Assembly (NCBI GenBank): GCA_018302335.1
Contig: JAGVZT010000046.1
Span: forward strand, 1 to 60,743
Length of the DNA: 60,743 nucleotides
Direction of reading: 5' to 3'
DNA from: Candidatus Woesearchaeota archaeon
GTDB taxonomy: Archaea; Nanobdellota; Nanobdellia; Woesearchaeales; JAGVZT01
Shown here: positions 29,590-35,391 of the stretch, piece by piece
Layout: each line of letters starts with the position of its first letter
How positions within the stretch are numbered: position 1 is the first letter of the stretch
Position numbers and translations under genes: made by a program
Notes under the pieces: generated by a model
Told to the model about the DNA's origin: nothing
Seen by the model: the letters and a program-made list of their open reading frames with translations, nothing else
Database searches by the model: none

Positions 29590-31869
29590 ATGAGATTCTT
29601 CGCGCTGCTGCTGGTCGTCCTCGTGCTGCACAGTCTCGCCGCAGGCGCTCTGAGCGTCACCCTGAGCGACCAGGGCACCGGGGTGAAGAGCATCTCCTCG
29701 GGCACGCTGCTCACCACCGGGAATCTCACGGTGCTCATCTATGAGGCTCTCTCTGGTGGGGATCCCATCTACAATGAAACGTTCAACGCCATCGTGAACG
29801 GCAGCTGGAACGTGGTGCTCGGCGGGGGCTCCACCGCCCTCAATCTGGAGTTCGGGAGGGACTACTACAAGGACTACGCCATCAACGGCGAGGATGCGAC
29901 CTTCGCGAACGCATCTGGAGACCCCGTGGACCGGCAGCTGTTCTTCTCGCCGCTCGGGGACGTCGGGAGCACCGTCTTGCTGAGGAGCGACAGCACCGCG
30001 CTGGGAGACTACAACGCCACGCACGTCAACTTCGGCATCAACTCGACGACCGGAACGCTGGCGGACAACACGATTACGTATGCCACCGTGTGCGGCGGGA
30101 ATTTCAACAGGGCCACCGGCAACTACGATACAATAGCAGGGGGAATCCAGAATGTCGCGCAGGGAGGCTACGGCGCAGTGGGCGGCGGCGCCTATAACAA
30201 CGCTTCTGACTTGTACGCGGTAATCTCCGGCGGCGACAACAACCTCGCACAAGGGGAGGCGAGTTCGGTTGCCGGAGGCAGGCTCAATGTAGTCACTGCC
30301 GACCTCAGCTCCGTGGGCGGCGGATTTGCCAATCGCGCGACGGGAGCGGGGAGCACTGTAGCAGGGGGCTACCAGAGCACCGCGACAGGCCTGTACTCTG
30401 CAATCGGTGGAGGGCTGAGCAACAACGCCTCCAATACCCACGCGGCCATCGCGGGCGGCGAGGGCAACAACGCCACCGCGACGTACACCTTCATCGGGAG
30501 CGGCTACCAGAACGTCGTGAACGGCTCGTACGGCGTCGTTGGGGGCGGCTACCGCAACAGCGCGAAGGGCTCCTGGGCGACGGTCTCCGGAGGCACCCAA
30601 AACAACGCCTCGAAGGACTCCTCCACCGTCGGAGGAGGAGACCGGAACCACGCGAGCGGCACCGCAGCGACCATTTCAGGAGGCGCGCTGAACCTGGCGA
30701 ACGGCTCATACTCCGCGATAGGGGGGGGTGGGTCAAACGCTGCTGGCGGATACTCCTCCAGCATAGGTGGAGGGCTCTCCAACGCAGCGCGCAGCGACTA
30801 CTCCTCAATCGGCGGCGGGGCCTACAACAACGCCTCCAACAGTTACGCGACGGTCGCTGGCGGCGACTCGAACATCGCGAGCGGCGCGCGTTCCTTTGTG
30901 GGTGGTGGGCTCACGAACACCGCGAGCGGCGAAGGGTCCTCGGTGGGCGGTGGATCAGGTAACACAGCGAGCGGTATTAATGGCCCTTCGGTTGGTGGTG
31001 GTTATTCAAACACCGCCTCGGGAGCCTCCGCAAGTGTGGCCGCAGGATATCAAAATATTGCCCATTACTCCTTTGTGGGTGGTGGATACGGGAATGACGC
31101 ATATGGCAATTACGCAGCCATCTCCGGCGGGGCCTCCAACAACGCCTCGGGAATCTACGCAGCAGCAAGCGGAGGCTCCTCGAATCGCGCACGTGGGGAT
31201 TACTCTCTGGTGGGGGGACTACTCATGGAGCTCACAGCCTCTGCGGACCGCTCATTCCTGTGGGGGTACAATACCTCGATGGTGTCCTTCGACGACGCCG
31301 ACTCGTTCATCGTGTTCGACTCGAACTTCCAGGTGCGGAACAGCACGAAGGGTTACAGCCTCGTGGTGAACCGCACCACGGGCAACGTGGGCATCGGCAC
31401 CGCCGCGGCGGGCGAACGTCTGAGCGTCTCCGGCCGCATCAACGCCTCGGGCTCCATCACGGGCAACTCCGGCCTCGATTACGCCGAGCGGTTCCCGGCG
31501 AGCAGCCACCTCAGCGCTGGAGATGTGGTGGTGATTGACACGCAACTCGAGGAGTCCGTGCACCAGTCGAGCAGGCCCTACGACACCACGGTCGCGGGAG
31601 TCGTCTCGACCGAGGCCGCATTCATGATAGGCAGCGGCGGCACGCCCATCGCCCTTGCCGGCCGCGTCCCGGTCAAGGTGACGGACGAGAACGGCGCGAT
31701 TGCCACCGGAGACCTGCTCACCACGAGTTCGGTGCCGGGCCATGCGATGCGGTGCGACATCTCCACGCAGGAGGGCAAGCTGCGCTGCTTCGGCGCGGTG
31801 CTCGGCAAGGCGATGGAGCCCTGCGCGGCGAGGCGCTGCGTCATCACCGCCCTGGTCAGCCTGCAGTGA
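29590..31869 (+). CDS. Secreted adhesin-like protein with YadA-head-type repeats
   Basis: A 759-residue protein with an N-terminal signal peptide (about 1-19). Residues ~160-560 are about 26 tandem 15-residue repeats of the form SxVGGGxxNxASGxY, the left-handed beta-roll motif of trimeric autotransporter heads. Many repeats carry NNAS or NxT sequons that could be N-glycosylated. From about residue 600 comes a GNVGIGT segment, then DYAERFPASSHLSAGDVVVID and VAGVVSTEA...GRVPVKVTDENG...GDLLTTSSVPGHAM, a C-terminal domain I know from many bacterial, CPR and archaeal surface proteins. No outer-membrane anchor exists here, so attachment must differ from bacterial YadA. The next gene encodes an anchored surface protein. 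Confidence 0.8.
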   Translation: MRFFALLLVVLVLHSLAAGALSVTLSDQGTGVKSISSGTLLTTGNLTVLIYEALSGGDPIYNETFNAIVNGSWNVVLGGGSTALNLEFGRDYYKDYAINGEDATFANASGDPVDRQLFFSPLGDVGSTVLLRSDSTALGDYNATHVNFGINSTTGTLADNTITYATVCGGNFNRATGNYDTIAGGIQNVAQGGYGAVGGGAYNNASDLYAVISGGDNNLAQGEASSVAGGRLNVVTADLSSVGGGFANRATGAGSTVAGGYQSTATGLYSAIGGGLSNNASNTHAAIAGGEGNNATATYTFIGSGYQNVVNGSYGVVGGGYRNSAKGSWATVSGGTQNNASKDSSTVGGGDRNHASGTAATISGGALNLANGSYSAIGGGGSNAAGGYSSSIGGGLSNAARSDYSSIGGGAYNNASNSYATVAGGDSNIASGARSFVGGGLTNTASGEGSSVGGGSGNTASGINGPSVGGGYSNTASGASASVAAGYQNIAHYSFVGGGYGNDAYGNYAAISGGASNNASGIYAAASGGSSNRARGDYSLVGGLLMELTASADRSFLWGYNTSMVSFDDADSFIVFDSNFQVRNSTKGYSLVVNRTTGNVGIGTAAAGERLSVSGRINASGSITGNSGLDYAERFPASSHLSAGDVVVIDTQLEESVHQSSRPYDTTVAGVVSTEAAFMIGSGGTPIALAGRVPVKVTDENGAIATGDLLTTSSVPGHAMRCDISTQEGKLRCFGAVLGKAMEPCAARRCVITALVSLQ
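30075..31215 (+). repeat. Array of 45-bp coding repeats (15-residue beta-roll units)
   Basis: About 26 imperfect units at 15-codon spacing inside the adhesin, typical unit GGCGGxGGCxxxAACAACGCC. Similarity at DNA level is moderate; protein pattern is strict. Confidence 0.8.
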
Positions 31870-32921: not shown

Positions 32922-32979
32922 GTCTGTTGCACGAGGCCGAGGGATAAGCTATTTATAACGCACAGTGTCCCCGGAAGGC

Positions 32980-35391
32980 GTGGGGGAGCGCCTGACGCCG
33001 GCGATGCAGCAGTACTTCCGCACCAAGCGCGAGTACCCGGACTGCCTGGTGATGTTCCGCATGGGACGCGCCTCGGACATTCTGGACATCACGCTCACCA
33101 GCAGGGGGGAGCTGGACGGCGAGAAGATACCGCTCGCGGGCGTCCCGTACCACGCCCTGGAACCCTATCTCGCGAAGCTCGTCCGCACGGGGCTCAAGGT
33201 CGCCATCTGCGAGCAGCTCGAGGACCCGAAGCTCGCGAAGGGGGTAGTGAAGCGCGATGTCGTGCGCGTCGTGACCCCCGGAGTGGTGGTGGAGAGCGAG
33301 CTGCTCAACGAACGGAGCAACAACTATCTCATGGCGCTCACCATCAAGGGAGAGCACATCGGCGCCGCGCTCGCGGACATCTCCACCGCCGAATTCCTCG
33401 CCACGGAGCTTCCCGCGAGGGAGCTCGGCGCGCTGCTTGCGCAGTTCTCCCCCGCGGAGATACTCATTCCCCTGAGCGCTGGCGTGGACCGGCAACTGCA
33501 CGAGACGCTGGCGAAGAGCGCCTGCCTCACTCCCGTTGAGGACGGCGAGTTCCAGGGCGCTGCCGAGCGCCTGAAGGCGCATTTTGGCGTCGCGACCCTC
33601 GAGGCCTACGGACTCAAGGACCGGCACCTCGCCACCGCCGCATCGGGAGCGCTGCTCTCCTATCTTTCGTCGACGCAGAAACAGCGGCTCTCCCTGCTCA
33701 CCAGCATGCGCTTCTTCTCCCAGGAGGAGTGCCTCCTGCTGGACCAGGTCACCCTGAAGAACCTCGAGGTGCTGCACTCGGCGCGCGACGGCTCCACGAA
33801 AGACACCCTTCTCTCCACGCTTGACTTCACTCGCACCGCGATGGGAGCGCGCCTTCTCCGGCGCTGGCTCGTGCAGCCCCTCCGCTCCCCTCCGCAGATT
33901 GCGATGAGGCTCGATGCGGTGGAAGAGCTGCAGGGAGCGATGCTGCGTTCCGCTCTGGCGGAGCAGCTCTCCGGGATGGCTGACCTCGAACGCCTCTCCT
34001 CCAAGGTCGCGATGGCCCGTGCGAAACCACGGGACCTCGCCGCGCTCCGCGACGCGCTGCTCCGCCTTCCGGACGCGAAGGCAGCCGTAGGGCAGTCCTC
34101 CGTCGCTCTCCTCATGGAGCTGGGGTCGTTCGACACCATGGAGGACACCGCCGCGCTGCTGTCCGCCGCGATAAGCGACTCCCCCCCTGCGCTCCTCCAG
34201 GACGGCAGCGTCATCCGGGAGGGCTACTCGCCCGAGCTTGACGAGCTCCGCGCGGCGAAGCGCGGGGGCAAGCAGCTGCTCGCGAAACTCGAGGAGGAGG
34301 AACGGTCACGGACAGGGATCCGCGCGCTGCGCGTGCGGTACAACCGGGTGTTCGGCTACTTCATCGAGGTCTCCAAGGCCAACCTGCACCTCGTCCCGGA
34401 GCGATATGTCCGGAAGCAGACCATGAGCACCGGCGAGCGGTACTTCACCGAGGAGTTGAAAGAGCACGAGAGCAAGGTGCTGCACGCCGAGGAGCGCATC
34501 CTCGGCCTGGAGGAGAAGCTCTTCCAGGAAGTCGCCGCGAGGGTCGCGGCGCGCGTGGCCGAGCTGCAGCGCGCGGCGCGGAGTCTCGCGGCGCTCGACA
34601 CGCTCTGCGCGTTTGCCGAAGCAGCCAGCCGCAACCGCTATGTGCGGCCCTCGGTGGATGACACCGATGGCATCGACATCCGCGAGGGGAGGCACCCGGT
34701 GCTCGAGCGCGAGGGGAGCTTCATCGGGAATGACTGCGTCATGCAGCCAGGAGAGGTGTTCATCATCACCGGCCCGAACATGGCCGGGAAGTCGACGTAC
34801 ATGCGCCAGGTCGCGCTCATCTGCCTCATGGCGCAGGCAGGCTCCTTCGTCCCTGCGGAAAGCGCGCGCATCGGGACCGCTGACCGCATCTTCACCCGCG
34901 TCGGGGCATTTGACGACCTCGCCCACGGCCAGAGCACCTTCATGGTGGAGATGGGCCAGACCGCACACATCCTGCACCACGCGACCTCAAGAAGCCTCGT
35001 CATCCTCGACGAGATTGGACGCGGGACCTCGACCTTCGACGGCGTGGCGTTGGCATGGAGCGTCGCCGAGTACATCTACCGGCGCGTCAAGGCCAAGACC
35101 CTCTTCGCGACGCACTACCACGTGCTGAACAGGCTCGCGGAGCAGTGCCCGGGAGTGCGGAACTTCAGCATCGCGGTGAAGGAGCGCGGCTCTGACATCA
35201 TCTTCCTCCGCAAGGTCACCGAGGGTGGAACCGACAAGTCCTACGGCATCCACGTCGCGCGGCTCGCAGGCATGCCCGCCGAGGTGGTGGAGCGCTCCCG
35301 GGAGATACAGGAGAAGCTCTTCGCCGAGGACAGGATGCACCTCCGTCTCCGCGCGAAGCGCGAGGAGGAGCAGCGTTCGCTGCTCGGCTGA
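32980..35391 (+). CDS. mutS: DNA mismatch repair protein MutS, FxE motif missing
   Basis: An 803-residue bacterial-type MutS. The clamp and ATPase domains are intact: Walker [17 protein letters not shown] near residue 597, [14 protein letters not shown] Walker B, and [10 protein letters not shown]. In the mismatch-recognition domain the family reads roughly [22 protein letters not shown]; here it is [17 protein letters not shown], so about 11 residues including the Phe-x-Glu wedge are absent. GTG 32980 is 27 nt after CTATTTATAAC and preferred to GTG 32965. MutL is not in the window. MutS is patchy in archaea, so bacterial origin is likely. Confidence 0.93.

Follow-up and report, generated by a model that had tools for sequence, protein, structure and literature searches.

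We show that the mutS1 gene of an uncultivated archaeon, located in a stretch of 60,743 nt on contig JAGVZT010000046.1 (hereafter the window), has an in-frame gap of 33 bp that removes the Phe-x-Glu mismatch wedge from domain I of an otherwise normal MutS1 protein. We consider it probable that an ordinary MutS1 gene, with no second MutS detected in the genome, has recently lost these 33 bp and thereby become a mutator-type loss-of-function allele dominating the sampled population. The features on which this reading is built are collected in Table 1.

Table 1. Coordinates of the mutS1 gene, the domains of its product and the gap junction in the window.
Feature	Position	Strand	Description	Evidence
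mutS1 ORF	32965-35391	+	GTG start, 808 aa, no internal stop or frameshift	NF003810/PRK05399 980 bits (cut-off 480); TIGR01070 903 bits (cut-off 641.7)
Junction of the in-frame 33-bp gap	33061-33069, between 33066 and 33067	+	ATG GGA / CGC, that is M33 G34 / R35	
MutS domain I (mismatch-binding)	32995-33297	+	internal deletion, conserved otherwise	PF01624, 99.6 bits
MutS domain II (connector)	33322-33699	+	intact; high AlphaFold2 confidence	PF05188
MutS domain III (core)	33751-34617	+	intact; surrounds domain IV	PF05192
MutS domain IV (clamp)	34222-34497	+	inside domain III	PF05190
MutS domain V (ATPase)	34762-35319	+	intact; 0 of 63 columns of 95% conservation altered	PF00488, 284 bits

The codons at 33055-33090 read TTC CGC ATG GGA followed immediately by CGC GCC TCG GAC ATT CTG GAC ATC, and the protein passes directly from FRMG to RASDILDI. 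In an alignment with E. coli MutS, the gap measures exactly 11 residues and stands opposite DFYELFYDDAK (E. coli residues 35-45), a segment that includes Phe36 and Glu38 and has no equivalent in the archaeal protein. The consensus of the 11 missing residues is DFYEMFYEDAK, which includes the Phe-x-Glu wedge. Besides these two residues, the gap takes out the strand that bears the wedge and part of the helix that follows. The initial annotation had described a jump from FRMG over about 11 residues holding the F-x-E motif, a size of 33 bp, and ATPase motifs that were all intact; the alignment and the DNA bear out the first two points, and the Walker A (GPNMAGKST), Walker B (DEIGRGTST) and THYH regions found in the ORF bear out the third.

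Judged by its sequence, the product of the ORF is a MutS1 orthologue by descent, a classification that does not extend to its working as a mismatch sensor. Both MutS1 equivalog models score above their cut-offs, as do the five Pfam families that correspond to domains I-V. In our tree the protein falls among archaeal and bacterial MutS1, no MSH4/5 sequence being part of that tree, and its best PDB matches are bacterial MutS. It is like the MutS1 family represented by TIGR01070/PRK05399 and by E. coli MutS (PDB 1e3m) in its five domains, its ATPase motifs, its endonuclease-type MutL partner, and its top PDB and HMM matches. These data give no support to the suggestion, made when the gap was first noticed, that the protein may do another job in the manner of MutS2 or MSH4/5. 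While it scores 903 to 980 bits against the MutS1 models, its score against the MutS2 model TIGR01069 is 173.7 bits, far under the cut-off of 400; MutS2 has core and ATPase homology in common with it but is without domains I and II, both of which the archaeal protein has, and the tree position among ordinary MutS1 and the matching MutL point the same way. The likeness to MSH4/5 consists solely of the missing motif. The neighborhood of mutS is archaeal, given that genes for RNA polymerase B'', B', A' and A'' and for an archaeal-type S12, all of full length, lie upstream on the contig. At 29590-31869, also on the + strand, we observed a 759-aa protein with many 'GGG..N.AS'-type repeats, unusual in an archaeon, which we take to be similar to those in the heads of trimeric autotransporter adhesins.

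MutS1 proteins were gathered from 353 genomes of the same archaeal order, 103 of which possess one. Of 100 same-order proteins or fragments that were compared, 94 span the wedge site, the rest being cut by contig ends or frame-broken, and the aromatic-x-Glu motif is retained in all 94 (G-D-F-[YF]-E in 93 and G-D-Y-Y-E in one, L127), as is the wedge motif in 23 of the 23 bacterial relatives that span the site. Incomplete or broken rows aside, no other MutS1 has a gap of at least four residues in a conserved block, and all their gaps of that size fall in variable loops, linkers or tails. A degenerate DNA pattern for the junction matched a single genome, the contig's own, among 371 genomes of the phylum. 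Across the genomes compared, this assembly alone has the gap, and a wedge-less clade is ruled out, as no sister shows it. The comparison with related archaeal MutS that had been proposed as a check thus found relatives carrying the full motif, which is one half of the outcome that had been named as refuting the initial annotation, and the privacy of the gap supports the local deletion that had been offered as the other explanation. As separate observations on the relatives, the MutS of L127 (G330), in which the wedge Phe has changed to Tyr (GDYYE), sits on a long branch (1.24), and the mutS of L129 (G207:C25:1377-3893) is spread over two reading frames, either because the gene is broken or because the assembly introduced a frameshift.

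A gap confined to one genome raises the question of an assembly artefact, which is the main rival to a recent deletion: the organism would have a normal mutS from which 33 bp were dropped in assembly, for example through a chimeric read or thin coverage. We regard this as unlikely, although it deserves serious weight. The gap is known from a single assembly while the motif is present in every relative, as an artefact would predict; the junction itself, however, is clean and in frame, and no local repeat of at least 8 bp is there to mislead an assembler. The relatives come from draft genomes too, including the one in which mutS runs in two frames, yet about 94 other mutS genes, mostly draft, are without a comparable gap. 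Similarly, the perfect conservation of the remainder of the gene is what would be expected if it were truly intact, whereas the RNA polymerase and S12 genes on the contig, being of full length, give no sign of contig-wide indels from bad assembly.

The degree of this conservation also bears on the age of the loss. Among the domain-I columns conserved in at least 80% of relatives, 51 of 52 are retained and one is altered; protein-wide, 2 of the 146 columns conserved at 95% differ, and identity to relatives is in the normal range in each domain, lowest in III/IV. On the assumption that all constraint on the protein ended with the loss, the counts of altered columns place a 95% upper limit of about 0.09 (domain I) or about 0.04 (whole protein) on the changes per site since then; the end branch of this MutS1 in the tree measures 0.93. 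An old loss accompanied by decay is ruled out, no domain having an excess of changes at conserved sites. We infer that the loss is recent because there is no decay elsewhere in the protein, and these comparisons argue that it is either young or not real.

Structure prediction suggests that the gap is disruptive. AlphaFold2, run with a 20-sequence alignment, gave the gapped protein a confident domain II and pLDDT values below 50 at residues 35-50 and 52-57, values which for a gapped sequence are not a measurement of stability, and the wedge-carrying strand and the following helix vanish from the model. When an intact bacterial homologue was modeled from the same alignment, AlphaFold2 predicted a strand at 26-30 and a helix at 31-41, with block means of 91-97. 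The best PDB matches of the gapped model are still MutS structures. The F36A substitution deprives E. coli MutS of mismatch binding but not of G-quadruplex binding (PMC3437207), and FxE mutants are unable to recognize mismatches (PMC12292046). Because of these point mutants and the predicted structure, loss of mismatch recognition by the gapped MutS1 is strongly expected, and the deletion probably destabilizes domain I as well. The initial annotation had pointed to bacterial MutS mutated in this motif, which cannot recognize mismatches, and the expectation that the archaeal protein should not do so either is supported by a private gap in which Phe36 and Glu38 are lost along with one strand and a portion of the helix. 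The engineered E. coli mutants resemble the archaeal protein in that the wedge residue is missing and the other domains are retained, but they carry substitutions, whereas the archaeal case is a natural deletion of 11 residues. A natural parallel is found in plant-lineage MutS1 (Zygnema, Adiantum, Ceratopteris; PMC12292046), likewise orthologues of MutS1 without the FXE mismatch motif; there, however, the motif was lost by substitution in a cyanobacterial-like MutS1, while the archaeal deletion affects the only MutS.

Could another residue have taken over from the wedge, leaving a working mismatch-repair MutS? All other MutS1-defining features are present, MutL included, and a variant wedge, Y-x-E, exists in L127; but the segment after FRMG has no aromatic residue, and the strand that would carry a replacement is gone along with part of the helix, the model having no confident structure there. 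We consider this the least probable of the readings examined.

Under the preferred reading of a recent loss-of-function allele, the removal of the wedge, its strand and the start of the next helix from domain I would leave a MutS1 that is still produced, dimerizes, binds ATP and contacts MutL. Such a protein would fail to insert into mismatches and MutL would not be licensed; replication errors would then stay unrepaired, and the mutation rate would be raised. Provided that the assembly is correct, this mutS carries a disruptive change that is private to it, while the gene is intact in all other respects. As to its origin, the junction has no repeat that points to slippage, and replication slippage between repeats is ruled out, since no direct repeat of at least 8 bp was found near the junction. 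Disruptive mutS alleles are of an already known kind. A precedent is the hypermutator isolate A1 of Achromobacter xylosoxidans, in which a 95-nt deletion in mutS corresponds to a gap of 36 aa (PMC7168687). Both cases are private deletions in a mutS gene that is otherwise normal; the present one differs in that it lies in an archaeal draft genome, is in frame and is centered on the wedge.

The consequences of such an allele depend on the rest of the genome, which contains a single MutS and a single MutS_I match. Its MutL, of 607 aa (L031:793-2616), looks functional because, in addition to the ATPase part, it has the DQHAAEERVLYE, ACR and CPHGRP motifs, which we take to be those of endonuclease-type MutL. 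No further MutS, no domain I outside mutS1 and no NucS/EndoMS that might serve as a backup route was found in the genome, which is 93% complete, so that the remaining portion may still hold another MutS or a NucS. In the order as a whole, a strong NucS match was obtained for 1 of the 103 genomes with MutS1 versus 135 of the 250 without it, a near-exclusion with a Fisher P value of 7e-26, in which kinship is not corrected for. The sole MutS1 genome with a strong NucS match, G144, is a bin with 7% contamination. This pattern fits the alternation of MutS and NucS described for prokaryotes (PMC5290159). In Halobacterium, inactivation of mutS or mutL does not lead to hypermutability, but this is a poor guide here because haloarchaea have NucS too.

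An alternative fate for the protein is repurposing, in which a mismatch-blind MutS has its clamp, ATPase and MutL contact selected for another task, such as binding to recombination intermediates or G-quadruplexes. The full conservation of the ATPase, core and clamp would suit such a role, as would the G-quadruplex binding of E. coli F36A in spite of its lost mismatch binding (PMC3437207); at the same time, domain I near the gap is conserved as in a working MutS1, with no sign of a long wedge-less life, and the gap is found in no relative. The window is rich in G+C (63%), but its G4 motifs are few (4 motif starts), and MutS2 and MSH4/5-type proteins form separate families. We therefore view repurposing as quite improbable, and the particular version in which selection keeps the clamp and ATPase of a mismatch-blind MutS1 to act with MutL on a non-mismatch substrate, the archaeon having no further mismatch-repair pathway that is known, as a shade less probable still. 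If the gap is real, a mutator-type mutS allele would be present in an uncultivated archaeon that seemingly has no backup route, NucS not having been found. Such cases have been described mostly in isolates of bacteria. The protein would, in addition, constitute a natural mismatch-blind MutS with an intact clamp and ATPase. Should the gap stem from the assembly, its value would be limited to a caution on reading function from one draft genome.

Two further features of MutS in this order emerged from the comparison. About half of the C-termini (for example, L056 and L126) end in Q-x-x-L-x-x-[FWYM], which is like a PCNA-interaction box; the C-terminus of the protein studied here (35350-35391) ends in QRSLLG, with the final aromatic residue missing, and variation of the motif among relatives is too great for further conclusions. 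In addition, an in-frame intein lies within the MutS Walker A motif, between GPNMAGK and ST, in L018 (G001, of the same family), L126 (G224) and L128 (G180). These inteins start with CVTGES, CLVGES or CVTGDT and end in HN ahead of the Ser; the one in L018 matches Pfam Intein_splicing (5e-16) and LAGLIDADG_3 (4e-25), and the insertion site is identical in two families of the order.
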